Source of the DNA: a bacterium | GTDB taxonomy: Bacteria; UBP6; UBA1177 | Assembly: GCA_017538365.1 (NCBI GenBank) | Contig: JAFYIZ010000038.1 | Span: forward strand, 1 to 40,719 | Direction of reading: 5' to 3' | Length of the DNA stretch: 40,719 nucleotides | Shown: positions 15,864 through 32,768 of the stretch, piece after piece | Position numbering within the stretch: position 1 is the stretch's first letter | How the letters are laid out: each line of letters begins with the position of its first letter | Made by a program: the position numbers and the translations under genes | Notes under the pieces: model-generated | The model's input: only the letters and a program-made list of their open reading frames with translations | What the model was told of the DNA's origin: nothing | The model's database searches: none

Positions 15864-16424
15864 TTAAACCGAAAGGTTTTCAAAGTTGGAAAAAATCTCC
15901 GCAATCTGTTTTTTAGCTTTGCAAAGTTCCTGAGCCACCTGAGCCCTGATGTCACCCTTGCCCATATCGGAAACAAGACGGATCGAGAAAAAATGCTTTT
16001 TAAATTCAACAGCCGTTTCGCGGAAGCGCAAAGTTTCCATCGTGTAGAGAAGCGGCATTTCAAGAAGGTCAGCCCAGTCGTATCCGTCGCCGGTGTAAAG
16101 TCTGTCATCGCCTGTTACCGCTGCTGTCGGAAGGTTGGTAAAACTCTGCGCCGAAGCAACTATTCCGCCGTTTAGATCGCAGAAAGTGGTACACTCGTAG
16201 ATGTTTCCGACAACGCCCTTCGAAACCGAAGCTGCCGTTCCGAATTCGCAGACACTCTTTATTTCCGGATATTCAGCTAGAACTTTGCCCAAAGCAAGAA
16301 CGCCGGCACTCCCCATTCCGGAACACAAAAGCATCATATTTTCGCTCTTTTTTGTAACGACACCCGTTGAAACCTTGATTGGGAAAGGGTTTTCATGCTT
16401 TAGCGGAAAAACGATAAGATTCAA
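15864..16424 (-). CDS. Nucleoside phosphorylase-like protein (MTA/SAH nucleosidase or futalosine hydrolase type)
   Basis: A 186-aa member of the purine nucleoside phosphorylase/hydrolase superfamily. Visible landmarks are CSGMGSAG near the N-terminus, EFGTAASVS, YTME with the ribose-binding Glu, and LVSDMGKGD with the base-binding Asp. It is shorter than MTA/SAH nucleosidase (about 230) and futalosine hydrolase (about 210-225), lacking part of the N-terminal strands, so the substrate is unclear. GGAGATTTGA before the ATG supports the start. It lies 1 bp after DUF4416 and 8 bp before recC in a dense minus-strand run. Confidence 0.7.
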   Translation of the reverse strand: MNLIVFPLKHENPFPIKVSTGVVTKKSENMMLLCSGMGSAGVLALGKVLAEYPEIKSVCEFGTAASVSKGVVGNIYECTTFCDLNGGIVASAQSFTNLPTAAVTGDDRLYTGDGYDWADLLEMPLLYTMETLRFRETAVEFKKHFFSIRLVSDMGKGDIRAQVAQELCKAKKQIAEIFSNFENLSV

Positions 16425-16425
16425 T

Positions 16426-16977
16426 TCAAATCTCCGTATTTTTCAAAAGCAAAGCTCTTTTTGCGCGATACAACTCACGAACTTCGAGCAGAAATGAACG
16501 TGCAGGTTCGTAAAGATAGTCGCGGTAACTCCACGGAAGCTCTTTTATGACGTTTTTTTTGCCGAACATGAGCGTAACCTCGGCAAAAACGCCGCTTCCC
16601 AAGTATATTCTGTGACTATAGTTTTTCCCTGTCGCCAGAATGAAATTTTCGAGCGTAACCAAGCCGGGATCAAGGTTTACCAGCCTGTTTCCGTTGTCTG
16701 AATATTCCTTTTCGAGCTTAACACAGAAAAGTTTGACCTCTTTGAGAATATCTCTTGCAACGGGCTCTTTGAAGCTGAAAACAATCTTTTTTATGTCACT
16801 GCCCATTTCGGGGTCGTAATAAGGCGATATTGACGAAAAATCATAAACATCTGAAATGGCATCAATTTCGCCGTATTTTTTTTCGAGAATCTCCCTTATC
16901 TCTTCTAGCAGAGCAGGATCTCTGAACATAACCGAAATAGTGAGATTAGCTTTTACGGGTTCAAGAAGTTCGCTCAT
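16426..16977 (-). CDS. DUF4416 family protein
   Basis: This 183-aa protein belongs to the DUF4416 family of unknown function. Family landmarks are the ISPYYDPEMG segment, RLVNLDPGLVTLENFILAT, HRIYLGSGVFAEVTL and the WSYRDYLYEP box. It is soluble with no signal peptide. The gene starts 8 bp after rfbB and its Shine-Dalgarno (AAGGAAG, long spacing) lies inside the rfbB end, so it is probably read through from the glycan locus. Confidence 0.85.
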   Translation of the reverse strand: MSELLEPVKANLTISVMFRDPALLEEIREILEKKYGEIDAISDVYDFSSISPYYDPEMGSDIKKIVFSFKEPVARDILKEVKLFCVKLEKEYSDNGNRLVNLDPGLVTLENFILATGKNYSHRIYLGSGVFAEVTLMFGKKNVIKELPWSYRDYLYEPARSFLLEVRELYRAKRALLLKNTEI

Positions 16978-16985
16978 TTTGGCAT

Positions 16986-18011
16986 TTATCTTCCTTCATA
17001 CATTTTTTTGTAGTAATTCCGGTATTCGCCGCTGATTATCTCTTCCCACCATTCGCGGTTGTCGAGATACCATTTTATCGTTTTCTTGATTCCGTCGGCG
17101 AATTTCGTTTCTGGCAGCCAGCCGAGTTCGTTGTGGATCTTCGTCGGGTCGATGGCATAGCGCATATCGTGACCTTTTCTGTCTGTGACAAACGTGATGA
17201 GGCTCTCTGGTTTGCCGAGTTCCTTGCAGACAAGTTTCACAATGTCGATATTACGCATTTCATTGTGACCGCCGATGTTGTAGACTTCGCCGACACGCCC
17301 TTTGTGGATAACAAGATCGATCGCTTTGCAGTGATCTTCGACATAAAGCCAGTCACGGACATTGATTCCTTCGCCGTAAACAGGAAGCGGCTTGTCGTTC
17401 AGCGCATTTGCAATCATCAAAGGGATCAGTTTTTCGGGGAAATGGTAAGGCCCGTAGTTATTCGAACAGCGCGAAATCGTTACCGGAAGCCCGAAAGTGC
17501 GGTGATAAGCCATGACAAGAAGGTCAGCCCCTGCTTTTGAGCTTGAATAAGGGCTGCTCGTATGTATCGGAGTCTCTTCGGTAAAGAAAAGGTCAGGTCT
17601 GTCAAGCGGAAGATCGCCGTAAACTTCATCGGTCGAAACCTGATGATAACGCTCTATCCCGTATTTCCTGCATGCGTCCATGAGAACTGATGTTCCGATT
17701 ATGTTTGTCTGAAGAAATACTGACGGATCCTCTATGCTTCTGTCAACGTGGCTTTCAGCCGCAAAGTTGACGACTATATCGGGCTTTTTCTCTTCAAAAA
17801 GTTTGTATATCCCCTCTCTGTCACAGATATCGATCTTCACGAAATCAAAATTCGGGTTGTCCATGACACTTTTGAGAGTGCTGAGATTTCCGGCGTAAGT
17901 GAGCTTGTCAAGGCACACGATTTTGTAGTCGGGATGCTTTTTCAGCATGTAAAATATGAAGTTGCTGCCGATAAATCCCGCGCCGCCTGTGACAAAAACC
18001 GTTTTCTGCAT
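16986..18011 (-). CDS. rfbB: dTDP-glucose 4,6-dehydratase
   Basis: This 341-aa extended short-chain dehydrogenase converts dTDP-glucose to dTDP-4-keto-6-deoxyglucose. It has the NAD-binding GGAGFIG at 9-15, the STDEVYGD motif containing the catalytic Thr-Asp-Glu, and the YSSSK (YxxxK) motif. AGGAGGAG precedes the ATG. It follows rfbA by 9 bp. rfbC and rfbD (rhamnose branch) are absent from the locus, which points to another deoxysugar. Confidence 0.96.
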   Translation of the reverse strand: MQKTVFVTGGAGFIGSNFIFYMLKKHPDYKIVCLDKLTYAGNLSTLKSVMDNPNFDFVKIDICDREGIYKLFEEKKPDIVVNFAAESHVDRSIEDPSVFLQTNIIGTSVLMDACRKYGIERYHQVSTDEVYGDLPLDRPDLFFTEETPIHTSSPYSSSKAGADLLVMAYHRTFGLPVTISRCSNNYGPYHFPEKLIPLMIANALNDKPLPVYGEGINVRDWLYVEDHCKAIDLVIHKGRVGEVYNIGGHNEMRNIDIVKLVCKELGKPESLITFVTDRKGHDMRYAIDPTKIHNELGWLPETKFADGIKKTIKWYLDNREWWEEIISGEYRNYYKKMYEGR

Positions 18012-18020
18012 GGTCTCCTC

Positions 18021-18890
18021 CTATTTTTCTTCCGTGATCGAAAGCAGATACTGACCGTAATCGGTCATTTTGAGTTCTTCGCCGATTTCTCTGAGCTCTT
18101 CCCGCGTGATAAATCCGCGTCTCCAGGCAATTTCCTCGATACACGAGACGTAAAAACCCTGCCTGTCCTGCACCGCTTCGACAAATTCAGCCGCCTTCAG
18201 CATATTTGCGGGTGTTCCGGTATCAAGCCACGCCATGCCGCGTCCGAGCAGGGTGACATTGAGTTCACCCATTTCCAGATATGCATTGTTGACTGCCGTG
18301 ATTTCTATTTCTCCGCGCGCCGAAGGTTTCACATTTTTCGCGATTTCAACAACGCGGTTATCGTAGAAATAAAGCCCCGGGACAGCATAGCTGCTCTTCG
18401 GATGTTCCGGTTTTTCCTCAATGGAAATAACCTTATGGTTTTTATCAAACTCAACAACGCCGAACGAACGCGCATCTTTTACCGGATAACCGAAAATAGT
18501 CGCTCCGACCTTGTTTTCCATCGCCCTGCGAAGCATTTTCGTCATATCCTGACCGAAGAAAACATTGTCCCCGAGTATCAGGCAGACGCTGTCTTCTCCG
18601 ATAAATTCCCCGCCAAGAATAAAGGCATCGGCAAGTCCGCGCGGCGTTTCCTGCACTTTGTACGAAAATTTCATTCCGAGCTTTTTTCCGCAGCCGAGAA
18701 GCCTTTCGTAAAGCGGAGTATCCTCCGGCGTCGAAATGATGAGCACTTCGCGTATCCCTGCCAGCATGAGGATCGAAAGCGGATAGTAAATGAGCGGTTT
18801 GTCGTAGATCGGCAGAAGCTGCTTTGAAACAGCTTTCGTCATCGGATAAAGCCTTGTTCCTTTGCCGCCGGCAAGAATGATTCCTTTCAT
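18021..18890 (-). CDS. rfbA: Glucose-1-phosphate thymidylyltransferase
   Basis: This 289-aa enzyme makes dTDP-glucose from glucose 1-phosphate and dTTP. The nucleotide-binding GGKGTRLYP lies at residues 8-16, followed by [22 protein letters not shown] and [11 protein letters not shown], all typical of RmlA. The ATG at 18890 was chosen over one 15 bp upstream because AGGAG lies at the right distance. The start is 2 bp after the upstream aminotransferase stop, so the three rfb-type genes form one transcript. Confidence 0.95.
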
Positions 18891-18892
18891 TT

Positions 18893-20002
18893 TTATCTCC
18901 TGCATTTCAAAATTATTTCACAAATTCTGTCGACATCTTTAAGCGTAAGATCGGCGTAAAGCGGAAGCGTCAGCACCCTGTCGGCAAAGTATGCCGCAAC
19001 AGGCGTTTTTTCGGCACCGGCAGTCGGAAGATCGCGGTAACATTCAAAAGAATTTGTCAGCGGATAGAAATATTTTCTCGCCATAATGCCGTTTTCACCG
19101 AGTTTTGCGAAAATTTCGTTTCTCGTTGCGCCGAAACCGTCAAAAACAACGGGAAAATATGCGTAATTCGGCGTGACATCCCTGCCAATCCTGCACAGTT
19201 TGATTCCTTTAACACCGTCGAGATGACTGAAATAGCGCTCGACAACGGCTTTTCGTTTTTCAATTTCTCCGTCAAGATGACGCAGATTGCAAAGCCCCAT
19301 CGCCGCCTGAAATTCGCTCATTTTTGCGTTTCCGCCTACAAATCCGACACTTTCTGCACCTGTTATTCCGAAATTTTTCATGCTGTTCAGCCTTTCTACA
19401 AGCGAATCGTCCGAAAAACAGACCGCACCGCCTTCGATCGTGTTGAAAACTTTGGTCGCATGAAAGCTGAACATCGCTGCGTCACCGAAACATGCAGAAG
19501 CTACACCTTTGTATTTCACAGCAAAAGCATGAGCCGCATCGTAAATGACTTTCAGACCGTGCTTTTTTGCAATATCGGCAATTTTTTCGACATCGCACAT
19601 GTTCCCGTAAACATGAACCGGAACTATCGCCACAGTTTTGTCTGTGATCAAAGCCTCGATCTTATCGGCATCGATCGTGTAATTTTCAGGATTCACATCG
19701 CAGAAAACGGGAACCAGGCCGTTCCGCACGATCGCATGAGTCGTTGAAGCAAAAGTGAAAGGAGTCGTAATAACTTCCGCACCTTTTTCAAACTGCATCG
19801 CCGCGATGACATTTTCGAGCGCCAGATGTCCATTCGTGTAAAGCGCGACATGCGGCACACCAAGAAACTTTTCAAGTTCAGCCTGAAACCGCTGATGTTT
19901 CACACCGGAATTGGTAAGCCAGCGGCTCTCCCACAACTCCTTTATTTCAGCACAGTATTCCTCAAAATCAGGCATTGAGGAACGGGTAACGTTTATGGTC
20001 AT
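18893..20002 (-). CDS. dTDP-4-keto-6-deoxyhexose aminotransferase, VioA-like
   Basis: A 369-aa DegT/DnrJ/EryC1/StrS-type PLP enzyme. The PLP lysine is K184 in [14 protein letters not shown], and D155 in YDAAHAF contacts the cofactor. That lysine segment resembles VioA (dTDP-Qui4N synthesis) more than WecE/RffA or FdtB/QdtB. No 3,4-ketoisomerase gene is present, which also argues for amination at C4. The product would be dTDP-4-amino-4,6-dideoxyglucose. The start at 20002 follows GGAGGAG, and an upstream in-frame ATG was rejected. A diverged hairpin repeat (20014-20051) lies in its leader. The exact stereochemistry of the product is inference. Confidence 0.82.
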
Positions 20003-20013
20003 ATCTCCTCCAG

Positions 20014-20051
20014 ACTTCATCCCCAGCCCTTATCCATTGTGACGAAGGAAA
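20014..20051 (-). repeat. Hairpin leader repeat, copy 2 (diverged)
   Basis: On the minus strand this 38-bp segment aligns without gaps to 281-318 on the plus strand with 29 identities, sharing GGGCTGGGGRTGA. As in copy 1 it sits just upstream of a start codon (12 bp before the ATG at 20002) and has the same orientation relative to the gene. The hairpin arms are largely decayed here. Confidence 0.5.
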
Positions 20052-20119
20052 CAAAAAGACAAAGTCAAAACGGTGTATAATACTTATTTTTTGAGAAATT
20101 GCGAGAAGGCAACGGTCGT

Positions 20120-21175
20120 TCAGCTTATATATTTTTCGATTTCATCAATGCTGTATCCGACAGACCTGTAATCGCAAGCTTTCAAAGAGGAAGCAATTGT
20201 GATCAAAGCCGAGGCGATGGGTGTTGCAATCCTTTTTTTTGCCGCCAGTTTTTCGAGCATGCACAGTTCCATAGGAACATCTTCATAAATATAACGCGTA
20301 TTCAGATCACTCGGTCCTTTAGGTCCGCCGGTAGCGGCATAATTTCTGAACACCTGCAAACTGTCTACAGACAGATCCTCTTCATTTCTCCATTTGCATG
20401 CATCAAGATAGTCTATTGCATGCTCGCCGCCGTATGCAGTTATTACCTGCTTCTTTTCATCATCAAGTCTTTCAACTATGTTCCAGACCGACGGGGAAAA
20501 CGCTTCGCGATACATCCAGAACTCACCTTTTGAATACTCGATCCGGCTTGCCGACATTATCGATCCGACAGTATGAACCACCATGTTGGGATTGTGCATG
20601 GTGGATTCAACGATGTTGCTTCTCAAATACTTGTGTGCACCGAACAAGGATGTGATTACAGGAAGAAACCGCTCATCCTCTTTGTGAAGAAAGGCAACTG
20701 CGTTGCGAACATTTCTGAACAGTATTTCGACTTTGCCTGGAGAGGTAATTCTTGCATCGTAAGGAGTCGATTCGCCCTCGACATATACGATATGCTTCCC
20801 TTCGCTGTATTTCGCGAACTGGGTAGAACCCATGTTGCCCGGAATCAGGAAGACTATCTGTCCTTCTTTTAAAAGCGGGCCTATTCTTTTCGCCAGATCG
20901 CGATGCTGAAGGCTCTGAGTCAGAATCATGACGACTTCAGCGCCTTCCAGACCGGCTTCTATATCTCTGGTGATCATATTCGGTTTTACCGAAAATTCTT
21001 TGTTGCCGTCAGTAGTATCAAGACAGCTGATTTCGCCAGTTTTCACAATAAATTCAAAATTGTCGTCGTGTAAACTGTGAGATGTCTTGATCAAATTTAC
21101 ATGATGTCCGTTTTGTATCAGCTTGACAGATTGAGCACAACCTGCATTTCCGGCACCTACAACTGCAACTTTCAT
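20120..21175 (-). CDS. NAD/NADP octopine/nopaline dehydrogenase-family protein
   Basis: This 351-aa protein has an N-terminal Rossmann fold with GAGNAG (residues 7-12) and an all-helical C-terminal domain of opine dehydrogenases, with a HNPNMVVH segment and SIMSASRIE in the expected place for catalytic and substrate residues. Opine dehydrogenases reductively condense an amino acid with a 2-oxo acid such as pyruvate. Its place between an amino-sugar aminotransferase and ATP-grasp ligases suggests an N-(carboxyalkyl)amino acid for glycan decoration. That is inference. GAGGGCGG precedes the ATG, and 36 bp separate it from the GNAT gene. Confidence 0.8.
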   Translation of the reverse strand: MKVAVVGAGNAGCAQSVKLIQNGHHVNLIKTSHSLHDDNFEFIVKTGEISCLDTTDGNKEFSVKPNMITRDIEAGLEGAEVVMILTQSLQHRDLAKRIGPLLKEGQIVFLIPGNMGSTQFAKYSEGKHIVYVEGESTPYDARITSPGKVEILFRNVRNAVAFLHKEDERFLPVITSLFGAHKYLRSNIVESTMHNPNMVVHTVGSIMSASRIEYSKGEFWMYREAFSPSVWNIVERLDDEKKQVITAYGGEHAIDYLDACKWRNEEDLSVDSLQVFRNYAATGGPKGPSDLNTRYIYEDVPMELCMLEKLAAKKRIATPIASALITIASSLKACDYRSVGYSIDEIEKYIS

Positions 21176-21211
21176 ATAACCGCCCTCGCAAAAAAATTGT
21201 TTTTTACCCTG

Positions 21212-22321
21212 TCAAACCAGAATCGTATCGCATCCGCCGTATCTGATTCTCCATTTATTCTGATCCGTAATATCGCTTTTACAATCTTTGCCAGCTTTAA
21301 ATGTCATCTGATACATACCACGATATGAAAAACCGAGACTCTCAATATCTTTGCCGACTCCCTCACTGGATATCACGGTATTGATTTTATCGACATCGGG
21401 GCTGAATGTTGCAAGAGCCAACAAATTTAATTCCACTTCACTCAATTCAGATTTATTCACACTTCCCCATTCAACAACCGTGCCTCTGATCAGATTTTTA
21501 AACATTCCCTTTTTGTTTTCTTCGAAGCGCTCCTTTGTCATATAGAAACCTTTGGGGGAACCGTTTTTGTCATAAACTGAATAAAAACAGTTTTTATCTT
21601 TCGGATTAGCAGAGAACATATGATCCAGATTCCACTGCAGCCATTTCTGATCATGTATTTCCGTATATTTGTGACCGTCATTTAAAGTAATATCGTTTAC
21701 CCATTCTGGAATGAGATTCTCTTTTTTTACAGTAAAGCGTTTTTTCAGATCACGAATCTTCATCAAGTTCGGGAGGTTCTGAATTTTCAGAAAAACATCG
21801 CCGAATAAAGCTAAAAAAGATAATGAAAAACCTTTAAATCCTTTGGCCGCCAAAACCGACTGACTCCTGCACAGTTTATAATAAAGCGGCTTTTCAAAAA
21901 TAGCGACGTCCATTTTTCGGAATATAGAAATAGCACCGGAAGAATAGAGCTGCCCGATATGTATAGGATATTCTCTATTTAAAACGGAGTCTTGAAGAAG
22001 CATGGTTCCTAGACCTTTTCCTTGAAAATTTTCATGAATTTCAAGACCTCCGCCGGTCTGGGCAAGCATAAAACCCTCTCCTGTTTTTATCCGAGTCTGC
22101 ATAAATATTCTTCTGCCCACTATCTTACCATTGAGATAAAGTATGTTGACTGCTGTTTTTGATCCGTCATAGTTAGGGTTAGTCAGCAAAGCATCTTTGG
22201 TGGGTTTGATGAAATAATCGGAAATGATTCCATAGTCATCTCCTGAGATTTCATAAGATCCGTTTTTCAATTCATCGTATGTTACTCTCTTCATCAAAAG
22301 AGTATCGGTTTCGGCCATCAT
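21212..22321 (-). CDS. GNAT-family N-acyltransferase, two-domain
   Basis: A 369-aa protein with an N-terminal GNAT domain (about 10-165) whose acyl-CoA motif is QGKGLG at 100-105. The C-terminal half (about 205-360) may be a second, degenerate GNAT-like unit. It probably acylates an amine on the sugar or amino-acid precursor of this locus, but the substrate is not evident. GAGGAG precedes the ATG, and 24 bp separate it from the ATP-grasp gene. Confidence 0.72.
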   Translation of the reverse strand: MMAETDTLLMKRVTYDELKNGSYEISGDDYGIISDYFIKPTKDALLTNPNYDGSKTAVNILYLNGKIVGRRIFMQTRIKTGEGFMLAQTGGGLEIHENFQGKGLGTMLLQDSVLNREYPIHIGQLYSSGAISIFRKMDVAIFEKPLYYKLCRSQSVLAAKGFKGFSLSFLALFGDVFLKIQNLPNLMKIRDLKKRFTVKKENLIPEWVNDITLNDGHKYTEIHDQKWLQWNLDHMFSANPKDKNCFYSVYDKNGSPKGFYMTKERFEENKKGMFKNLIRGTVVEWGSVNKSELSEVELNLLALATFSPDVDKINTVISSEGVGKDIESLGFSYRGMYQMTFKAGKDCKSDITDQNKWRIRYGGCDTILV

Positions 22322-22345
22322 TACTCCTCAAAAAACGCCTTCAGA

Positions 22346-23626
22346 TCACTCAAACAGGCTTTTAGGATCAAGTTTATCCATCAGAATAGATTTTCCTTCA
22401 GGATTAAAGACATCAAAAATGTTATTTATATAATTAACCTTTTCAATAACTTGTTCTTTGTTTTCCAAAACAATTTCGGCAACCATTATCGGGATGTCAA
22501 CGATCCTCTCCCTGTCATAATGATAACCTACTTCATGGTATTTTTGTATCTCCACGCATTCAGGCATAGCTTCAACTTCATCCATACCGCAAATTTCGGC
22601 AACAGTTTCGTTGCAACCTTTCAACAGATAATTACAGTCTAAAGCATATTTTTTGTATTTTGCAGATTCTTTGCTGATCATGTTGATATCATTGACCATT
22701 TTACCTGTCAAAGCATAATTTATGATCATATCCATCGCATTGTAACCAAGGCACGCCTGCTCATGGTTGAAGTATGAACCACCTAGTCTGCACCCCATTT
22801 CAAAGAACATGATCCTGTTTCCGTCATAGTATCCCTGCATAAAAAGAACGCCGTCCGTAAAACCTTCTTTTTTGAACATATTGACGACCGTATCATTTAT
22901 GTTTTCGAGATAATAATCCACCGCTTTGGAAGGCGACATGCTGATAGTTGAGTAATTGACAGCACTTCCCCTGTCAGAAGCCATGAAACGATCGAATATC
23001 GAAAGCAGTCTAAACTCTCCGTTTACCGCAATATAGTCAAGAAGAAACTCTCTACCGCTGATATAATCTTCAATTATTGCATTTCCACTGGCAGAATAGC
23101 TTAGGGCATCTTTAAACCTTGCAAACAATTCCGTTTCGTTTTTACAAACTCCGGCACCGCGCGAACCGCTTCCGTCAAGAGGCTTTACAAAAACAGGATA
23201 TTTGATTTTACCTAGGATTTCCTTATCGATTTTATTTCCTGTCAAATATGTCTTCGGCACCGGCACATTATAGCGGCTGCAGGTCTCTTTAAAATCGATT
23301 TTGTTCGTTGACATACTCAGCATTTTTTCAGTAATATAGCAGGGAAGATCGAGTTTTTTGCAAACGTCCATATACGGCCTCAGCAATATATCGACAAAAC
23401 CTGTAATTACGCCGTCAACCTTCTCTTTTCTGCAGAAATCCACCAGCGCATCAACATCCAAGGCATTGATCAAAACAGGCTTGTCAGCGACTAGCTTTGC
23501 AGGTGAGTCTTCTTTATAGTCCGCAACTATCGTATATATTCCCTTATTCTTTGCGTAACGGACGATATCGCACTCGGTCTTTGTTGCACCGATTATAAGC
23601 AGTTTTTTTCCAGCCAATTCATTCAT
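22346..23626 (-). CDS. ATP-grasp carboxylate-amine ligase (second)
   Basis: This 426-aa ATP-grasp enzyme has an N-terminal Rossmann-like domain (LLIIGATKTECDI), the central FVKPLDGSGSRGAG phosphate loop, IIEDYISGREF, and FFEMGCRLGG in place of the usual E-x-N-x-R Mg2+ motif. Such ligases form amide bonds through an acyl-phosphate. It is not purine or carbamoyl-phosphate enzyme-like in length. A GGGGGT stretch precedes the ATG. Together with the gene at 24580 it makes two ligases on either side of a PLP-fold protein. Confidence 0.85.
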   Translation of the reverse strand: MNELAGKKLLIIGATKTECDIVRYAKNKGIYTIVADYKEDSPAKLVADKPVLINALDVDALVDFCRKEKVDGVITGFVDILLRPYMDVCKKLDLPCYITEKMLSMSTNKIDFKETCSRYNVPVPKTYLTGNKIDKEILGKIKYPVFVKPLDGSGSRGAGVCKNETELFARFKDALSYSASGNAIIEDYISGREFLLDYIAVNGEFRLLSIFDRFMASDRGSAVNYSTISMSPSKAVDYYLENINDTVVNMFKKEGFTDGVLFMQGYYDGNRIMFFEMGCRLGGSYFNHEQACLGYNAMDMIINYALTGKMVNDINMISKESAKYKKYALDCNYLLKGCNETVAEICGMDEVEAMPECVEIQKYHEVGYHYDRERIVDIPIMVAEIVLENKEQVIEKVNYINNIFDVFNPEGKSILMDKLDPKSLFE

Positions 23627-23638
23627 AAGAACCCCCGT

Positions 23639-24583
23639 TTATTGCTTTTTAACAAAAGTTATCAATTCATTCATATCCTCTTCCGAATACCGCTGGTCGA
23701 CCGGCAACGGCAGAATATTCTCCGCAAATTTGTATTCAAGACTTGTTTTATCCGTTTCATTCAGAACATTCGGCCAGAGTGTCGGAATATATATTTTCTG
23801 TTGTTGAAGTTTTTTGCGTATTTCAGCACCGTTTTCAATAAGCAGCGGATAAGCGAAAGCCCCCTCAACTTTTTTCAGTTTCAGTTGATTTATTTTTCCG
23901 AGTTTTTCATGACACAGTCTAAAATTACAGGTTCTGCGATTTTTTACGAATTCGTAATCTATTGCGTGAAGCAGATTGTTCGTAAGTTTCGACATCTTTT
24001 TTACCGGCTCGCTCGAAAACATCTTATTGTTTGACACATTTTCGCTATAAAATTCAGAAGCCGTCCGTTCGAAACGTCCGAGCAGAAAATGCATCCGTTC
24101 AAAAGATTCATCCACCGGCAACTCTTCACCAAGAATTGTATCGGTGTATAAAAACGCACCGTCAGCGACTCCGAAAAATTTGCGACAGGTATAAAGCGTG
24201 TCGACTCCGTGAATAGCCATTTCAAAATATGCCTGAGCGTTGTCAACGATGATTCTGCCATATTTGTTTTTCAGTTCTTTGATGTAATTCAAATCCAACT
24301 GACCGTAATAATTCATCAGATAGAACCATTCGCCGTCAGCAAGTTCAATGTTTTCCGGCAAAAAGTTCTCGTCAATATGATACAATGATATTTCCACGCC
24401 GTATTTTTTGCACACTTCGAATACGCTGTCACACATAAAATAAGGCACTTTTATTTTTTTTATGTTCTTCGCCTTTATCAAGTAAGCCAAACAATTTCTG
24501 CCGCAATTCAGGGCAACAGCGCCTTCATGTAGCATCGGCAGTCTATAAGTATCAAGTTCTATGTATCCGCCAATCTCTCTCAT
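23639..24583 (-). CDS. Short DegT-like PLP-fold protein of unknown function
   Basis: A 314-aa distant relative of DegT/DnrJ sugar aminotransferases. D114 (VDNAQAYFE) matches the PLP-ring Asp and K135 (CRKFFGVADG) sits where the PLP lysine should be. The N-terminus (IGGYIEL, LNCGRNCLAYLIKAKN) resembles uncharacterised proteins encoded in surface-polysaccharide loci. It is shorter than classical aminotransferases (about 370). It could be an aminotransferase, an amino-acid beta-replacement enzyme, or non-catalytic. Its start overlaps the upstream ATP-grasp stop (ATGA), so the two are translationally coupled. Confidence 0.7.
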   Translation of the reverse strand: MREIGGYIELDTYRLPMLHEGAVALNCGRNCLAYLIKAKNIKKIKVPYFMCDSVFEVCKKYGVEISLYHIDENFLPENIELADGEWFYLMNYYGQLDLNYIKELKNKYGRIIVDNAQAYFEMAIHGVDTLYTCRKFFGVADGAFLYTDTILGEELPVDESFERMHFLLGRFERTASEFYSENVSNNKMFSSEPVKKMSKLTNNLLHAIDYEFVKNRRTCNFRLCHEKLGKINQLKLKKVEGAFAYPLLIENGAEIRKKLQQQKIYIPTLWPNVLNETDKTSLEYKFAENILPLPVDQRYSEEDMNELITFVKKQ

Positions 24584-25782
24584 TTTTTGTATTCAATCAT
24601 TATATGCTCGTTTATATTCCCGAGTATTTTTGCCATATTTTCAGCATTATCAAATTTGAAAAAAACGATCCCTAGCGCTTTTGCCGCATTGTCGAAATAC
24701 TCTACACGATCCCCCTGCTTTTTGTAAAGACATTCTCTGACAATATACTTTTTTATTTGCTCTGAATATCGGATTTTATTAAAAATTCCGCTCCGCGCAG
24801 CATGAAGATTGTGCGTTGCACAGTATAAAACAGGTTCATTGACCGTCACATTCGGCATCTCACCCATCGCCGCCTGAATAGTCATCTCGACCATATCAAT
24901 ACCGAAAATATATCCAAGTAAATCGGGAATCATGTTTCCACCGCTGCGCGGACCGACATCTATCAGAAAGACATCGCCTTTTCCATCGACAACAAGTTCG
25001 ATATTCATGGCCCCAAAACCGATATGAAGCCTGTTGACCATATTCTGCAGGACAGATTTTGCTTTTTCGAGGTCTTCCTCTGCTAGTTCGGGTGGGAAAC
25101 TCTTGCCGACTGGAACGAGAGGATTGACGTTACAGTCTCGGTGACAGTTCATCAGTCCCCATATAACGACCTTGCCGTCTTGAACAAATATGTCTCCGCC
25201 GACAAGATAGGGATGCTTTTTTTCGATAAATTCTTCAACTACAACACGTTTGCATCTTGAAAAAGAGAATGCAAACTCGAGGGCTTTTTCAAAATTTTCA
25301 CAACAGTGCAGAACCGTCGCACCTTTGCTTCCGGAAGAATCGACCGGCTTTATAATAACCGGCATATTGAAAAAATTTTTTTCAATGTCATTCAATGCAG
25401 AGTGCGGGTTGTCATATCCTTTTGCCTTCGGTGTGCAGAAACCGTTTTCTGCAAGAAACTTTCTGAATCGGTCTTTATTGCAGAGAATTTCGACAGAATC
25501 ATAAGGATTCCCCGGAAGTCCGAGTTTTTCAGCAACATAAGCCGCAGTCGGAGCAGCCGGATCGGAAGCATAGGCAAGCACTCCGTCAACTTTTTCACTT
25601 TTTGCGACTTCAAGTACCGCTTCTTTGTCTGTTGTGCTGACAAGATAAAATTTATCTGCATGATACTGCCCTGGATTGTCTGTGAGATAATCGCAGAGAA
25701 CGGTATAATATCCGAGTCTTTTTGCCGTCTCTATTGCTATAATCTGCTGAGCCGAACCTCCGAGCAATAAAATTTTCTTCAT
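24580..25782 (-). CDS. ATP-grasp carboxylate-amine ligase (first)
   Basis: A 400-aa ATP-grasp ligase. LLLGGSAQQIIAIETAKRLG begins the N-terminal domain, IIKPVDSSGSKGA is the phosphate loop, VVVEEFIEKKHP follows, and LIDVGPRSGGN carries Asp where Glu is usual in the Mg2+ motif. The type is common in polysaccharide loci and is often annotated as carbamoyl-phosphate-synthase-like or PurK-like. Start and stop both overlap neighbours by 4 bp, so this gene, the flippase and the PLP-fold gene are tightly coupled. Confidence 0.85.
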   Translation of the reverse strand: MKKILLLGGSAQQIIAIETAKRLGYYTVLCDYLTDNPGQYHADKFYLVSTTDKEAVLEVAKSEKVDGVLAYASDPAAPTAAYVAEKLGLPGNPYDSVEILCNKDRFRKFLAENGFCTPKAKGYDNPHSALNDIEKNFFNMPVIIKPVDSSGSKGATVLHCCENFEKALEFAFSFSRCKRVVVEEFIEKKHPYLVGGDIFVQDGKVVIWGLMNCHRDCNVNPLVPVGKSFPPELAEEDLEKAKSVLQNMVNRLHIGFGAMNIELVVDGKGDVFLIDVGPRSGGNMIPDLLGYIFGIDMVEMTIQAAMGEMPNVTVNEPVLYCATHNLHAARSGIFNKIRYSEQIKKYIVRECLYKKQGDRVEYFDNAAKALGIVFFKFDNAENMAKILGNINEHIMIEYKK

Positions 25783-27233
25783 GTTTTTTTTCTCTTCATA
25801 AAAAAACCCTGCACTATACTCAACAAATATTCGAAGCTGTCAATTTTGAAGAGTTTTGATCCTGCGACATACAAAAACGCACCGAGAGAAACCTGAATCA
25901 AAAGCGTCAGAATGTCGTCCAAACCGATAAAGCTTATACAATATACCACAGCCCCCATTCCGAGCGAAAGAATTATCTGCGGCAGCATATCCTTGAACTG
26001 GTCTCCGTATTTGTAGTCAAGCAGTTTTCTGTTAGGCCATGAATTTACGATCTGATTGCACAACGATACCGCAAGAGCACTATATGCCATTGCAAGCACG
26101 CTTATCCACATTGTTGCCAGCACTGATATAAGTCCAAGAATTTTCTTGATTATTTCAAGTTTTAAAAAAAGATCGCTTCTTCCCAAAGCTTTCATGGCGT
26201 TTAGATTTGCAGTGTGAATCGGATAAAATGCATATGTAAAGCAGAAAATCCTTAAAAACGGAACGCACGGCAACCACTTTTCCGTAAGGAGAAGCCTTAC
26301 CAACGGTTCTGCACACACAGCAAGCCCGGCCATACATGGCATTATTATATAAGTGCTCGTTTTTATTGCCCTTCTTGTCATAGCCCGGACACGCTGCCTA
26401 TCATCCTGTTCTGCCGACATTGTCGGCAGAAGAACACTGTCGATTGAAGAATTTATATTTGACACTATGAAACGCGGGAAATACGTCGAGCGGTTATAAA
26501 AAGCCAAATCAGAAGTAGTATAAAGTTTGCCTATTATCAAAGATCTGAGCTCGCGGTAGCCGACTTCTATCAAAGCTGAAGCAAGCAGTTTCCAACCGTA
26601 AGAAAAAAGACCTTTCAGTCTTTCGAACGAAAACAAGAGCTTTGGTCGCCATTTCACAGTCACCCAAAGAATAAGCGCTGCAGATGCAGCTCTTGACAGT
26701 TGCTGCGCAACAACTGCCCACACGCCGAAGCCGTTATAGGCCATAGCGATACCCACAACCGCAGCAAAAACCGTCCCCCCTAAAGTCGAATAAAAAAACC
26801 GTTTGAAAATCAAATGCCGTGAAACATAAGCCTGCTGAATATTGCATACACCTGAAATAATAAGCATAAGACTTAAAACACGGACAACAGATGTCAGATC
26901 GGGCATACCGTAAAAATCGGCGATAAGCGGAGCCACAGCAAACATCAATCCGTAAAGAACAATACATACCGCCATATTGAAATAGAAAACACTCGAAAAA
27001 TCGAGGTCATCAGCATGCTTCTTCTGGATAAGAGCATTGCCAAGTCCGCTATCGACAAAAACCTGTAAAACGTTAATAAAAACAGTAACTATAGCGATTA
27101 TACCAAATGCTTCAGGGGCAAGTAAACGGGCAAGAACAATCTCGACTAAAAAGGCAACCGCCTGAGCTCCGGTACGCTCAGCCAACCGCCATAAAATATT
27201 AGAGAATGCTTTATTTCTAATATTTTCGCTCAA
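25779..27233 (-). CDS. Wzx-like polysaccharide flippase
   Basis: A 484-aa membrane protein with about 12-14 helices of the polysaccharide transporter (MOP/WzxC) family, which moves lipid-linked repeat units across the inner membrane. The N-terminus SNILWRLAERTGAQ, the VLARLLAPEAFGIIA segment and SGLGNALIQKK are characteristic. The start codon is TTG at 27233, supported by AAAGGTGA just upstream and by the family N-terminus. It begins 3 bp after the polymerase stop. Confidence 0.9.
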   Translation of the reverse strand: MSENIRNKAFSNILWRLAERTGAQAVAFLVEIVLARLLAPEAFGIIAIVTVFINVLQVFVDSGLGNALIQKKHADDLDFSSVFYFNMAVCIVLYGLMFAVAPLIADFYGMPDLTSVVRVLSLMLIISGVCNIQQAYVSRHLIFKRFFYSTLGGTVFAAVVGIAMAYNGFGVWAVVAQQLSRAASAALILWVTVKWRPKLLFSFERLKGLFSYGWKLLASALIEVGYRELRSLIIGKLYTTSDLAFYNRSTYFPRFIVSNINSSIDSVLLPTMSAEQDDRQRVRAMTRRAIKTSTYIIMPCMAGLAVCAEPLVRLLLTEKWLPCVPFLRIFCFTYAFYPIHTANLNAMKALGRSDLFLKLEIIKKILGLISVLATMWISVLAMAYSALAVSLCNQIVNSWPNRKLLDYKYGDQFKDMLPQIILSLGMGAVVYCISFIGLDDILTLLIQVSLGAFLYVAGSKLFKIDSFEYLLSIVQGFFMKRKKT

Positions 27234-27236
27234 AAA

Positions 27237-28301
27237 TCACCTTTCGAATATCCAATAGTAATTAACCGTATCGGGGTTCTTGTACAGATCGTAGATCCAA
27301 AAAATAAAATAAAAAACTAAAACCATAGCATAAACTGCCATAACTATCGGCTTTATCTTTTCGTGCTCCGGCTTCAAAGACGGGAATATCAGCGGAATAA
27401 AAAGAATGTTGAAGATATTGGTATAACTACAGATCCTGTTTAAATAGATACTGCCCATCGACGCCACATTGAGGACAGCGTTAAGAAGCGAAAGGTTAAA
27501 AAGGCAATAAATATCGTCATTTTCTACGTTTTTATATGTTTTTTTGAAAAACGCATAGACTGCAACAGGCATACAATTGACCACTATCCTCAGCATATTG
27601 ACAGACTGGGTAACAGTTGCTGAAGTTGCATCGGCAATACCCTCACCTCTTTTAAGCAACGCCATGAAAATGAATAATTTGTCGTAAAAAAATCTCACTA
27701 TCAAAGCGAAAAACACCAACATAGCGATACGTTTTTTATCGATTTTATTATCTGCCAGAAAGTAAACAGGAAGCATCAAAACTGCAGAGACGTGGAATGC
27801 CGCAGCAATCGCACAGAATGCGCACCAGTACCAGAATTTACGATCCCTCAAAAACGGGTATCCACAAAAAAGTATTGTTGCAGCAACTGACTGTTTAACA
27901 ATGTTGAACGAAAAATGCCAGCACCCTATCAAAATATAGAGCAGAATGGCTAGTTCTATGCTTTTGCCCCTTTTCACTATAAAGACAATGACCGGAACAA
28001 CCGTGATAACAGCCATCAAAAAAAACCATGTCGCGTAATCGTTGTATATCAGTGAGGAAATTTTGGCGAAAATTGAAAGCGCCGGCTGGGAAAGAATGGA
28101 AAAATTGTCTATATATTCCGAATACATAATCACGTAGGTCTTGTAATCCGTTCCAACCATATACCTTAGACCGGACACAGCAGTCAGAATTACTGCTGCA
28201 ACTATATAGGACATCTTTCGTATTATTGGCTTACAACCTTCAGCCGATGAAAACACAAAAAGGAAAGAAAGTATTGAAAATACTGATAAATATACTAACA
28301 T
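27237..28301 (-). CDS. EpsG/Wzy-like polysaccharide polymerase
   Basis: This 354-aa protein has about 10 membrane segments and the EpsG-family signature GLRYMVGTDYKTY, so it probably polymerises the glycan repeat unit. It is the first gene of the locus after the rpoC terminator. The ATG has no clear Shine-Dalgarno, which is odd for this window. A -10 box lies about 60 bp upstream. Ligase versus polymerase activity cannot be separated from sequence alone. Confidence 0.8.
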   Translation of the reverse strand: MLVYLSVFSILSFLFVFSSAEGCKPIIRKMSYIVAAVILTAVSGLRYMVGTDYKTYVIMYSEYIDNFSILSQPALSIFAKISSLIYNDYATWFFLMAVITVVPVIVFIVKRGKSIELAILLYILIGCWHFSFNIVKQSVAATILFCGYPFLRDRKFWYWCAFCAIAAAFHVSAVLMLPVYFLADNKIDKKRIAMLVFFALIVRFFYDKLFIFMALLKRGEGIADATSATVTQSVNMLRIVVNCMPVAVYAFFKKTYKNVENDDIYCLFNLSLLNAVLNVASMGSIYLNRICSYTNIFNILFIPLIFPSLKPEHEKIKPIVMAVYAMVLVFYFIFWIYDLYKNPDTVNYYWIFER

Positions 28302-28451: not shown

Positions 28452-31400
28452 TTATTCTTCGTCTCTCGTATCGGAGCCGGAAGGAATGTCGTCAGTTTCG
28501 CTGAAACCTTCTTCATCTCCTTCCATACCGTTGGAGATATTACTGAAATCAAAAGCGCCTTCCATATCCATGTCCTCGGAAAGTCTTCTGCTTGCACGGA
28601 AAGAAGTTCTCGAGGTTCTCGTGGTGACATCTTCGTCGTCAGAAACCGCTTCGGAGTTTTCCATTCCCGGGATTTTGATTTCGTAATTTGCTTCGCTGTA
28701 TTTTGGGAACCCTGTTCCGGCAGGAATGATTTTTCCTATGATGATATTCTCTTTGATACCGCGGAGAATATCTTTTTTCCTTTCGACACTTGCATTGGTG
28801 AGGACTTTCGTCGTTTCCTGGAAGCTGGCTGCCGAGAAGAAACTTTCGGTGTTGAGGGCTGCCTTCGTGATACCGAGAAGAACAACGTCCCATGTTGCCG
28901 GTTTGAGTCCTTTCTCTTCAGTGATGCGGTTGATCTTTTCGAGTTTTTCCTTCTCGACGAGCTCGTCTTTCATAAGCATCGTGTCGCCCGGATCGATGAT
29001 TTTTCTCTTCTTGAGCATCTGTTTTACGATGATTTCGATGTGCTTGTCGTTGATCGGAACACCCTGAAGTTTGTAAACTCTCTGGACTTCCTGAACAAGG
29101 AACTTCGCAACAGCAACTTCACCGCTGATTCTCAGGATGTCGTGCGGATCGATCGTTCCTTCGATAAGAGCTTCGCCCGCTTCGACCGTATCACCGTCGT
29201 GGACGTTGATGTGCTTTTCTTTAGGAATCTGAATCGGTTCCATCGATTCACCGCCGTCAACAGGAGTAACCGTGATGACACGTTTGCTCTTCGAGTTCTT
29301 TCCTTCGCTGGTAATCGAAACGATACCCGAAATTTCCGATACTTTCGCCGGATTTTTGGTCTTTCTGGCTTCGAACAAATCGCTGATTCTCGGAAGACCG
29401 CCCGTGATATCTTTCGTTTTTCTTGCAGCTCTCGGAACTTTGGCGAGAACATCGCCGGGTGCTACGAGCGCGCCGTTCGGAACTTCGATGTATGCGTTGA
29501 CCGGAAGATGGTAAACCGCTTCACCTCTTTCGAGTTTTTTCGCGGTCTTTCTTCCTTTTTTACCCTCTTCGGTAATAAGGAGCTGAGGAGACATTTTCGC
29601 ATCACGGGTCGGAATTACAACCGTTTTGGTAAGACCGGTGTTCTGATCCTGCTCTTCCCTCATCGTGATACCGTTTTCAAGGTCTTCGTAAGCGATGACA
29701 CCGTCGGTCTCTGCAATAATCGGATCATTGTAAGGATCCCAGTCTGCAAGGATCGTTCCTTCGGCGACATGAGCACCGTCAGCAACTTTAAGGTTGGTTC
29801 CGTATGTTACCGGATATTTTTCCCTGTCTCTTCCTTTCTCGTCCTGAATAACGATTTTTCCGTTTCTGTTCATGACGACGAAAGTTCCGTCGGGTTTCTG
29901 GAGAAGTTTGATGTCTTTGTAAGCGACTTTGCCGGCTCTCTTCGACTCGTGGCTTGACTTTTCACTTTTACCTGAAGCAACACCGCCGACGTGGAAAGTT
30001 CTCATCGTAAGCTGCGTTCCTGGTTCACCGATTGACTGTGCCGCGATGAATCCGACAGCTTCACCGACGTTTACGAGGTGACCGCGCGCCAAATCTCTGC
30101 CGTAGCACTTTGCACAAACACCGAAAGGACTTCTGCACGTAAGAACCGATCTGATTCTGACGCTGTCAATACCGAGGTCGACGATTTTATCAGCCTTTTC
30201 CTCGTCTATCATCGTGTTGGCCTCGATGATGATCTCGCCTGTATCGGGATCTTCAATATCGTCAAGCGTGACTCTGCCGAGGATTCTCTCTTTGAGCGGA
30301 GCTATGATTTCGCCCGATTCATTGAGCATAGCCTCAACATCGATACCGCTGTTCGTTCCGCAGTCTTCTTCGACTACGACTACATCCTGAGCGACATCGA
30401 CAAGTCTTCTTGTGAGGTAACCTGAGTTAGCGGTTTTAAGAGCGGTATCGGCCGAACCTTTTCTTGCACCGTGTGTTGACGTGAAGTAGTCAAGGGAGTC
30501 AAGACCTTCCTTGAAGTTTGCAAGAATAGGCGTTTCGATGATGTCGCCGTTCGGTTTCGACATAAGACCACGCATACCGCCGAGCTGTCTGATCTGATCC
30601 TGAGAACCTCTGGCTTTCGAGTCAGCCATGACGTAGACCGAGTTTTCCGAAGGCATGATGATTTCGCCCCAAAGCGGATGTTCGATCTTCTTTTCCTTGA
30701 GACCTTCCATCATCTTTTTGGTAACTCTTTCGTTTGCAACACCCCAAAGGTCAACGATCTTATTGTAACGCTCAGACTTCGTGATGTTACCGTCTTTGTA
30801 CTGATCTTCGACTTCACGGACAGATTTTTCGGTTTCAGCGATAATTGCAGCCTTTTCAGCCGGAATTTTGATATCGTCTATAGAAATCGAGTAAGCTGCC
30901 TTTGTCGAATACTGGTAACCGAGGTTTTTGATTTTGTCGGCAAAAATGACCGTAGCCTTTCCGCCTGCAACTCTGAAACTCTTGTCGAGAATCGACGTCC
31001 AGTCACCTTTTTTGAGCTGTCTGTTGATCGTATCAAAACCGAGTTCTTTCGGTGTTACAGCCCAGATAAGAAGACGTCCTGCCGTCGTGACGCGAAGTTT
31101 TCCGTCAATGCGGACCTTGATTATAGACTGCCAGTCAATAATGCCGGAATCACGCGCCATAAGAGCTTCAGTATCGGAATAGAAAACCTTTCCTTCGCCC
31201 TTCGAATAAGGTTTTGCGGTAGTCAGGTAGTAAAGACCGAGAACCATATCCTGCGCCGGAGAAATTACCGGAGTACCGGATGCCGGAGAAAGAATGTTGT
31301 TCGTCGACATCATGAGAACGCGGCTTTCGAGCTGCGCCTCAATGCTGAGCGGAAGGTGAACAGCCATCTGGTCGCCGTCGAAGTCAGCGTTGAACGCGAC

Positions 31401-32768
31401 GCAAACGAGCGGGTGAAGTCTGATCGCCTTCGAGTCGATAAGAACCGGTTCAAAAGCCTGAATACCGAGTCTGTGAAGCGTAGGAGCACGGTTGAGAAGG
31501 ACCGGATGCTCTTTTACGACTTCTTCAAGGATTTCCCATACAACATCTTCGCCCGCTTCGACCATGTTTTTAGCTGCCTTGACAGTGCTTACAAGGTTTC
31601 TTTCGGAAAGTTTGTTGTAGATGAACGGCTTGAAAAGCTCGAGAGCCATGACTTTCGGAAGACCGCATTCGTGCAGTTTGAGTTCCGGACCGACCGTAAT
31701 AACCGAACGACCTGAGTAGTCGACACGTTTTCCGAGAAGGTTCTGACGGAAACGGCCGCTCTTACCTTTGAGCATTTCACTGAGTGATTTCAGCGCTCTG
31801 CCGTTCGCACCCTGAACCGGTCTGTGCACTTTCGTGTTGTCGAAAAGCGCGTCAACCGCTTCCTGAAGCATTCTCGTCTCGTTTTTGATGATGACATCGG
31901 GAGCACCAAGATCCATAAGCTTTTTCAAACGGATATTTCTGTTGAGAACTCTTCTGTAAAGGTCGTTGAGGTCGCTTGTCGCGAAACGGCTTCCGCCTTC
32001 AAGCGGAACAAGCGGTCTCAAATCGGGCGGAAGAACGGGAAGGACAGTGAGGATCATGTTTTCAGGTCTCTCTCCCGAACGGATGAACTTATTGAAAACA
32101 TTGATCCTTTTCTGCAACTTAGCCTGCTGGTTCTTGTCACCGCAGGTTGCAAGTTCTTCTTCGACTTCCTTCTTTACGGCAACGAGATCCATCTCTTCGA
32201 GAAGCTGTCTGAGCGGAGCTGCACCTGTTTCGGCGTAAATCTGTTCCGGACCGTATTTTTCAAGAAGTTCGTTGTACTGCTCTTCTTCGAGATACTGTCC
32301 TTTGACAACGCCTTTTATTTCCGATCTGAGAACAACGTAGCCTTCGCAGTAGATAACGCTGCTGAGGTTGGTGTTGCTCATTCCGAGAAGCGTATTGATG
32401 TAGAAAGGAGAGGTTTTGACATACCAGATGTGGGCAACCGGAGTAGCCAGTGTGATATGCCCCATTCTCTCTCTTCTGACCTTGGATTCGATAACTTCGA
32501 CACCGCATTTTTCGCAGACGATGCCTTTGTATTTCATCCTTCTGTATTTGCCGCAGAGACACTCGTAATCATTGATCGGACCGAAAATTTTCGCGCAGAA
32601 AAGACCGTCCTTTTCAGGCTTATATGTTCTGTGATTGAGTGTTTCGGGCTTTTTGACTTCGCCGTAAGACCATTCGAGAATCTTTTCGGGCGAAGCGAGC
32701 GATACCTCAATAGCCTTAAAATCAAAACTGCTTTTCGACTTGTCGAAAACTTTGTAAATGTCTTTCAA
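28452..32768 (-). CDS. rpoC: RNA polymerase subunit beta-prime
   Basis: The 1438-aa catalytic subunit has the active-site NADFDGDQMAVHLP, an N-terminal zinc site (CLCGKYRRMKYKGIVCEKCG), a second zinc site (CRSPFGVCAKC) and a large SI3-like insertion in the trigger-loop region. The C-terminus is an acidic tail (GDEEGFSETDDIPSGSDTRDEE region). The start codon is TTG at 32768, positioned by AGGAGG seven bases upstream and by the family N-terminus MKDIYKVFDK. It follows rpoB by 9 bp and is closed by the terminator at 28403-28428. rpsL/rpsG/fusA do not follow. Confidence 0.97.
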   Translation of the reverse strand: MKDIYKVFDKSKSSFDFKAIEVSLASPEKILEWSYGEVKKPETLNHRTYKPEKDGLFCAKIFGPINDYECLCGKYRRMKYKGIVCEKCGVEVIESKVRRERMGHITLATPVAHIWYVKTSPFYINTLLGMSNTNLSSVIYCEGYVVLRSEIKGVVKGQYLEEEQYNELLEKYGPEQIYAETGAAPLRQLLEEMDLVAVKKEVEEELATCGDKNQQAKLQKRINVFNKFIRSGERPENMILTVLPVLPPDLRPLVPLEGGSRFATSDLNDLYRRVLNRNIRLKKLMDLGAPDVIIKNETRMLQEAVDALFDNTKVHRPVQGANGRALKSLSEMLKGKSGRFRQNLLGKRVDYSGRSVITVGPELKLHECGLPKVMALELFKPFIYNKLSERNLVSTVKAAKNMVEAGEDVVWEILEEVVKEHPVLLNRAPTLHRLGIQAFEPVLIDSKAIRLHPLVCVAFNADFDGDQMAVHLPLSIEAQLESRVLMMSTNNILSPASGTPVISPAQDMVLGLYYLTTAKPYSKGEGKVFYSDTEALMARDSGIIDWQSIIKVRIDGKLRVTTAGRLLIWAVTPKELGFDTINRQLKKGDWTSILDKSFRVAGGKATVIFADKIKNLGYQYSTKAAYSISIDDIKIPAEKAAIIAETEKSVREVEDQYKDGNITKSERYNKIVDLWGVANERVTKKMMEGLKEKKIEHPLWGEIIMPSENSVYVMADSKARGSQDQIRQLGGMRGLMSKPNGDIIETPILANFKEGLDSLDYFTSTHGARKGSADTALKTANSGYLTRRLVDVAQDVVVVEEDCGTNSGIDVEAMLNESGEIIAPLKERILGRVTLDDIEDPDTGEIIIEANTMIDEEKADKIVDLGIDSVRIRSVLTCRSPFGVCAKCYGRDLARGHLVNVGEAVGFIAAQSIGEPGTQLTMRTFHVGGVASGKSEKSSHESKRAGKVAYKDIKLLQKPDGTFVVMNRNGKIVIQDEKGRDREKYPVTYGTNLKVADGAHVAEGTILADWDPYNDPIIAETDGVIAYEDLENGITMREEQDQNTGLTKTVVIPTRDAKMSPQLLITEEGKKGRKTAKKLERGEAVYHLPVNAYIEVPNGALVAPGDVLAKVPRAARKTKDITGGLPRISDLFEARKTKNPAKVSEISGIVSITSEGKNSKSKRVITVTPVDGGESMEPIQIPKEKHINVHDGDTVEAGEALIEGTIDPHDILRISGEVAVAKFLVQEVQRVYKLQGVPINDKHIEIIVKQMLKKRKIIDPGDTMLMKDELVEKEKLEKINRITEEKGLKPATWDVVLLGITKAALNTESFFSAASFQETTKVLTNASVERKKDILRGIKENIIIGKIIPAGTGFPKYSEANYEIKIPGMENSEAVSDDEDVTTRTSRTSFRASRRLSEDMDMEGAFDFSNISNGMEGDEEGFSETDDIPSGSDTRDEE

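Follow-up and report, generated by a model that had tools for sequence, protein, structure and literature searches.

Amino acids carried on bacterial surface sugars help decide serotype and charge, and their attachment is, in our judgement, still mostly unassigned. Pathways to acylated amino sugars usually pair an aminotransferase with an acyltransferase. The DegT enzymes bind pyridoxal phosphate (PLP) through a lysine and face its pyridine nitrogen with an aspartate, while a G-T motif binds the phosphate and an aromatic residue, at the position numbered 51 below, lies over the PLP ring. Amide formation by the ATP-grasp and FemAB-type enzymes that figure as partners below is known or predicted from their families.

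Three published O-antigens and one capsule bear on what follows. As set out in the relevant passages of PMC10609480, the Escherichia coli O123 unit contains Qui4N carrying an N-[(S)-3-hydroxybutyryl]-D-alanyl group, together with GlcNAc and L-QuiNAc residues; Shigella dysenteriae D7 bears N-acetylglycyl on Qui4N; and Providencia alcalifaciens O35 bears alanopine on the same sugar. In the Campylobacter jejuni capsule, PLP enzymes stand beside the ATP-grasp amidoligase Cj1438, and the pertinent part of PMC11800379 describes Cj1438C as amidating glucuronic acid with serinol or ethanolamine phosphate and names two PLP enzymes of the pathway in its reference list. Because these PLP enzymes feed a capsule amidoligase, a pairing of the kind described below is not without precedent in principle. 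Their role differs from the one that we propose, since what they provide is a free amine to be joined to a carboxyl group.

Here we describe an unnamed protein which, from its sequence, is predicted to represent a branch that has diverged from the other DegT enzymes of PLP fold type I. Its gene lies in a stretch of 40,719 nucleotides (contig JAFYIZ010000038.1, hereafter the window) from a bacterial genome of 2.32 Mb in 49 contigs. The phylum of this genome was searched through 28 genomes, and the records close to it are two MAGs, one from goat duodenum and one from red deer.

The gene and its surroundings

The short DegT-like gene lies on the minus strand at 23639..24583, starts with ATG and encodes 314 aa, with K135 and D114 as the hallmarks of a predicted PLP enzyme. 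The first-pass annotation had described a 314-aa frame that overlaps an ATP-grasp gene by 4 bp, and the coordinates (23639-24583 against 24580-25782) agree. Homologues are 88% identical within the genus and still 31-43% identical in Cupriavidus, E. coli, Acetoanaerobium and Proteus, so this frame is a real gene and not a product of chance.

The surrounding genes, all on the minus strand, form a polysaccharide cluster, given here in the order of transcription. An EpsG-family protein (27237..28301, by Pfam) and a MOP-family polysaccharide flippase (25779..27233, by Pfam and NCBIfam) are followed by ATP-grasp protein 1 (24580..25782, 400 aa), which lies immediately upstream of the short DegT-like frame and matches Pfam ATP-grasp_4 with 36.3 bits against a cut-off of 27; its LAL_C2 (L-amino acid ligase) domain scores 24.5 in the window as against 34.3 in the homologue from genome G011, for a cut-off of 29.4. 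ATP-grasp protein 2 (22346..23626, 426 aa) begins 12 bp downstream of the short DegT-like gene and has a counterpart of 79% identity in genome G702. Next come a GNAT-like protein (21212..22321, 369 aa), whose Pfam matches stay under the cut-off, and a protein of the octopine/opine dehydrogenase family (20120..21175, 351 aa), recognized by a domain match. A canonical, VioA-like DegT sugar aminotransferase (18893..20020) is 45% identical to E. coli O7 VioA and 27% to the O71 enzyme, and is predicted to make dTDP-Qui4N. The last two genes are an RmlA-like glucose-1-phosphate thymidylyltransferase (18021..18905), matching annotated E. coli RfbA proteins with E-values of 8e-118 to 4e-126, and an RmlB-like dTDP-glucose 4,6-dehydratase (16986..18011), matching annotated E. 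coli dTDP-glucose 4,6-dehydratases with E-values of 9e-114 to 5e-119; we take these two to be RmlA and RmlB.

The cluster (16986-28301) directly adjoins a gene on the same strand at 28452-32768, which we take to be rpoC, and the same neighbourhood is seen in genome G014. Beyond its other end, the stretch 15864-16977 encodes a DUF4416 protein and another, short one that weakly matches nucleoside phosphorylases.

A divergent relative of the DegT enzymes

By family models, the protein is nearly invisible. No Pfam family passes its cut-off, and two non-PLP families, far below theirs, are the only ones at E<=1; PF01041 (DegT/DnrJ/EryC1/StrS) thus falls short of its gathering cut-off and gives no match even at E<=1. 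NCBIfam yields no match at E<=0.1 and PHROGs a single one (E 0.32), and the E. coli member, like the window protein, has no Pfam match. A sequence match to PDB entry 2osd (E 0.004) spans residues 39-115 only and was treated as chance. Among the relatives, which were gathered from genomes, plasmids and E. coli, PF01041 is nevertheless matched at E<=0.01 by 11 of 32, the best at 6.7e-30. Four scans of viral sequences found no viral relatives.

Profile comparison bears out the earlier view of a remote DegT relative. A profile of 17 members aligned by hhalign with a profile of eight canonical DegT proteins from the same loci gives a probability of 97.5 and an E-value of 8.5e-12. Searched against the PDB, the 17-row profile finds WlaRF best (9.2e-6), with QdtB at 1e-4; a 32-row profile, four of whose rows are distant and lie nearer to canonical DegT, has its best match in a scyllo-inositol transaminase (1.6e-16) and also finds QdtB, WlaRF/WlaRG, WbpE, ArnB and the like. 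To judge from these profiles, the close branch is related to the DegT/DnrJ/EryC1/StrS family but has diverged from it, and by the Pfam cut-off the window protein is no member of that family. In a tree, 18 close members form one group (100/99), within which those with ATP-grasp neighbours and those with WbqC neighbours are intermixed. Since four distant members (G839, G922, G957 and G788) fall on the canonical DegT side, on long branches, the tree does not establish a single origin for the short DegT-like family as a whole. No published description of the family was found among the literature matches listed, and RefSeq labels the E. coli member "hypothetical protein."

The first-pass annotation had further noted an Asp and a Lys in PLP-binding positions, and as positions these are secure: D114 and K135 are invariant in 34/34 aligned members and fall, in the profile alignment, on D161 and K190 of the window's canonical DegT protein. 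(This alignment leaves aside G734, whose frame is broken; the broken members of G496 and G600 stand outside both the count of 34 and that of 35 loci used below.) Equally invariant are R29, P47, G94, R217, N220 and W270, with Q297 kept in 33 and R134 in 30 of the 34. Like the sugar aminotransferases VioA, ArnB, QdtB and WlaRF/WlaRG, the family shares profile similarity over most of its length, the Lys and Asp, a Gly seven residues after the Lys, a C-terminal LP motif and, in the predicted model, an N-terminal half that Foldseek matches. It differs from them in its invariant N220 and nearly invariant Q297, and in having a Ser or Thr three residues before the Lys (30/34), where canonical proteins have a Ser five before.

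The differences extend to the cofactor and substrate sites. Position 51 is Cys in 32/34 and His in 2/34 members, as against seven Phe and one Tyr in the eight canonical proteins, and the residue after the glycine motif is Arg (R29) in every member, as against five Thr, two His and one Leu. The phosphate-binding G-T motif and the ring aromatic are thus both absent, replaced in 34/34 by Arg and by Cys or His. The window protein has only 27 residues before the glycine motif, close members (n = 18) a median of 27.5, distant ones (n = 15) 39 and canonical proteins (n = 8) a median of 64.5; the W270-P294 spacing is 24 versus 33.5 in canonical proteins, and the G142-R217 spacing is longer, 75 versus 59. 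Given these shortened and altered active-site segments, a VioA-like nucleotide-sugar pocket is unlikely to be intact.

Structure prediction adds a partial view. The AlphaFold2 model of the window protein, built from a four-sequence input, has a mean pLDDT of 49.8, with values above 50 roughly at residues 20-133 and 142-155 and below 50 at 134-141, around K135, and at 156-314; by this measure half of the model is unreliable. Foldseek places DegT sugar aminotransferases at the top (E about 1e-6) and some further fold-type I enzymes below them; one of its local matches, to ArnB (1mdo), has 3.4 A over 145 columns. VIA-align returns fold-type I enzymes in near ties (Z 12.3-13.8 over 145-174 residues). 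Its list is led by histidinol-phosphate aminotransferases, with WlaRF in 39th place (Z 12.5), and therefore does not single out DegT. Entries missing from either list carry no evidential weight.

Partner genes and the E. coli O-antigen clusters

The proposed coupling to an ATP-grasp ligase survives in part: the adjacency recurs, but ATP-grasp is only one of three kinds of partner, WbqC or FemAB/Acetyltransf_6 proteins standing in its place elsewhere. ATP-grasp as the sole partner was rejected on this account. Taking as adjacent any gene that overlaps or lies within 100 bp, a predicted amide-forming gene adjoins the short DegT-like gene in 26/35 loci (ATP-grasp 1 in 11, WbqC in 6, FemAB/Acetyltransf_6 in 9). 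These 35 loci are those found by the searches and not a random sample, and include near copies (G000/G014 and G251/G123/G392); G839 and G922 were added from coordinates and Pfam matches, and the G251 frame is cut by a contig end. G394 carries both ATP-grasp 1 and FemAB. In six further loci a partner lies within 3.6 kb, and in three of the 35 (G883, G788 and G294) no partner gene was found near the member. A separate canonical-type DegT (E<=1e-15 to that of the window) occurs in the same stretch in at least 18/35 loci, several stretches ending at contig ends. All three kinds of partner are predicted from their families to form amides.

Seen from the partner's side, ATP-grasp 1 (E<=1e-40) occurs in 7/386 sampled genomes and has the member next to it in six of them (G000, G003, G011, G014, G702 and, with a broken frame, G734); four of the six belong to the window's own genus, so that there are fewer independent lineages than the counts suggest. 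ATP-grasp 2 likewise occurs in 7/386 genomes, with the member adjacent in five, the exceptions being G006 and G009. The exact 4-bp overlap recurs only in the broken-frame G734, while the remaining nine loci in which ATP-grasp 1 adjoins the member have gaps of 2 to 62 bp or, in G531, a 26-bp overlap (start as called). Adjacency to ATP-grasp is conserved; the overlap is not.

Individual loci show further arrangements. G007 (L147 7526-10768) has ATP-grasp 1 (55% identical), an opine dehydrogenase homologue and, by eye, a TupA-like gene, and carries no member. In G006 (L135 7848-11714), two ATP-grasp genes flank what looks by eye like an MmgE/PrpD-like gene, where relatives have the DegT-like gene; in G734 (L123 5196-5678), the DegT-like frame between two ATP-grasp genes is broken after 160 aa. 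Locus L051 has a cut FemAB frame beside the member, and no partner gene was found beside that of L127.

G702, from another family in the sample, keeps a flippase, DegT, ATP-grasp 1, the DegT-like gene, ATP-grasp 2 and an opine dehydrogenase together. In the stretch L118 3992-6434, from a genome of another family in the sample, ATP-grasp 2 shares 79% identity with its window counterpart and the opine dehydrogenase is very similar to that of the window (E 6e-207), while the DegT-like protein is 36% and ATP-grasp 1 37% identical. Such a contrast in identities suggests that the ATP-grasp 2/opine dehydrogenase pair may have been transferred separately. On the megaplasmid of Cupriavidus metallidurans CH34 (L012 10140-12960), a DegT gene, WbqC and the member lie close together, WbqC beside the member, in a region for which the gene table holds no features.

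The E. coli O123/O186 cluster connects the family with a known structure. Its genes run rmlB, rmlA, wzx, DegT, WbqC, "hypothetical protein," GNAT and MaoC, and the "hypothetical protein" of 324 aa (WP_096884079.1, WP_001206706.1) is a family member: as sole target of each search, it is hit by the window protein at E 1.2e-57 and by the profile at 1.1e-96. WP_096884079.1 is 33-34% identical to the window protein and, like it, is encoded near a VioA-like DegT (64% to O7 VioA), but beside WbqC in place of an ATP-grasp gene. From galF to gnd there is no homologue of ATP-grasp 1 or of the opine dehydrogenase, and up to gnd no DegT-type gene besides the VioA-like one. The member was reached through its DegT neighbour; by DNA search, in which diverged members would be missed, it occurs in 10/5426 E. 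coli genomes, and the same 10 carry the O123-type WbqC. Three of these were opened, and all have the O123/O186 wzx label, from which serotype was read. When the Proteus stretch of WbqC plus member was used as the query, the E. coli genomes gave one 34-base match (E 2).

The amino groups of GlcNAc and L-QuiNAc derive from UDP-GlcNAc, so only the Qui4N of the O123 unit needs a dedicated aminotransferase. As the VioA-like DegT can already account for that amine, what remains for the short PLP-like protein would be the acyl chain. Of this chain, the 3-hydroxybutyryl part would suit GNAT and MaoC, which would leave D-alanine to WbqC and the short protein.

The O121 cluster offers the counterpart. 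We take E. coli O121 to share its O-antigen with S. dysenteriae D7, whose amino acid is glycine; glycine has no alpha-stereocentre, and alanine has one. Between galF and gnd, O121 has DegT, WbqC and GNAT and no member (profile search, all frames of at least 60 aa). Its WbqC, 39% identical to that of O123, occurs in 13/5426 genomes, none of them among the 10 with a member. Eight E. coli stretches were opened around a DegT match, and a member is present in the O123-type stretch alone; O7, which encodes the acetyltransferase VioB, is among those that lack one. E. coli O161, a second D-alanyl case, was sought by NeuB DNA and gave no match.

What the protein may do

We see about an even prospect that the short DegT-like protein acts on the amino-acid substituent which its operon partner couples to an amino sugar, rather than on the sugar. 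For the window, dTDP-Qui4N would be made by RmlA, RmlB and the VioA-like DegT, and ATP-grasp protein 1 would couple an amino acid to its 4-amino group; the short protein, with PLP at K135, would then capture the free alpha-amine as an aldimine and alter the alpha-carbon. ATP-grasp 2, the GNAT-like protein and the opine dehydrogenase would add or build further groups, leading to an opine-like (alanopine-type) chain. The window would thus probably specify an opine-type chain on Qui4N, a chemistry predicted from the genes: the P. alcalifaciens O35 O-antigen fits its VioA-like, opine dehydrogenase and ATP-grasp genes.

As to the alteration at the alpha-carbon, we commit to an inversion from L to D, for which Cys51 is a candidate second acid/base. 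It was chosen because the glycyl cluster lacks a member, because the family stands beside aminoacyl-type enzymes, and because the ring aromatic has given way to an acid/base residue, Cys or His, in 34/34. That inversion is the actual chemistry is, for all this, only a tentative proposal, and the full reading, namely that a widespread branch of the DegT fold left sugar chemistry and serves as an aminoacyl-sugar epimerase, inverting the alpha-carbon of an amide-linked amino acid with Cys or His as second base, is possible and equally tentative. If true, the fold of a sugar aminotransferase has been re-used for amino-acid chemistry, and the D-amino acids on Qui4N and on legionaminic-type sugars could be explained from L-amino acid donors. 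The family would in turn tie an unnamed gene of E. coli O123/O186 and of other O-antigen, capsule-like and nonulosonic-acid loci to an aminoacylation step, a question which the published O123 and D7 structures make directly testable, from gene to structure.

Several points weigh against action on the amino-acid substituent, some of them against inversion in particular. The structure-to-gene argument is built on one pair of O-antigens, with serotype taken from the wzx label. D-Ala is already available in cells, so that a dedicated epimerase is not obviously needed; we know of no racemase in the DegT family, and Cys or His at position 51 is no proof of a second base. For the window in particular, the published alanopine holds L-alanine, which needs no inversion. 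Finally, three loci have no partner, and in G007 ATP-grasp 1 and the opine dehydrogenase do without a member.

The main rival to inversion is an aminotransferase of the acyl side, whose partner would attach a 2-oxo acid to the sugar amine, the protein then transaminating it to an amino-acid residue; alternatively, the free 2-oxo acid would be the substrate. Most of the solved relatives found are indeed DegT-family aminotransferases or PLP/PMP dehydrases, and such an activity would explain where GNAT or ATP-grasp 2 finds a new amine to acylate. However, because O121 is read as making its glycyl group with WbqC and without a member, WbqC is unlikely to transfer 2-oxo acids, and free alanine needs no dedicated enzyme; we hold such an aminotransferase to be somewhat unlikely.

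The idea first suggested by the context was that the protein is a second sugar aminotransferase, its pocket trimmed, which provides each cluster with another amino sugar for the adjacent enzyme to acylate. Kinship to the DegT sugar aminotransferases and the familiar pairing of aminotransferase with acyltransferase speak for it. It was lowered when the O123 repeat unit offered no place for one: in this one structure, the sugar amines need a single dedicated aminotransferase, the canonical one is present, and the amino sugar that the member would make is not there. The two shortened segments (27 versus a median of 64.5 residues before the glycine motif; 24 versus 33.5 from W270 to P294) and the canonical-type DegT already present in at least 18/35 loci point the same way, and we consider this function improbable.

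If the protein instead used some other PLP chemistry (aldol, beta-elimination or decarboxylation) to provide the ligase with an unusual amino acid as building block, it would resemble the PLP enzymes that serve the Cj1438 amidoligase in Campylobacter. Besides this precedent, as far as the cited part of PMC11800379 presents it, plasmid pLAU-OXA3 (L151 4525-13399) has an rmlBA-DegT-type cluster with GNAT in which a different PLP-type protein, similar to ACC deaminase/D-cysteine desulfhydrase, is paired with an ATP-grasp gene. Against it, O123 carries plain D-alanine in the structure as given in PMC10609480, and an unusual amino acid is accordingly quite improbable.

A dead enzyme, whose part beside the ATP-grasp, WbqC or FemAB enzyme would be structural, would suit the Arg at the Thr position after the glycine motif, the Cys or His at the usually aromatic position 51 and the close spacing to the partner gene. 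It is scarcely credible, however, since a dead protein would have no need of K135 and D114, and these are kept in 34/34 members, among them some with as little as 15-20% identity to the window protein.
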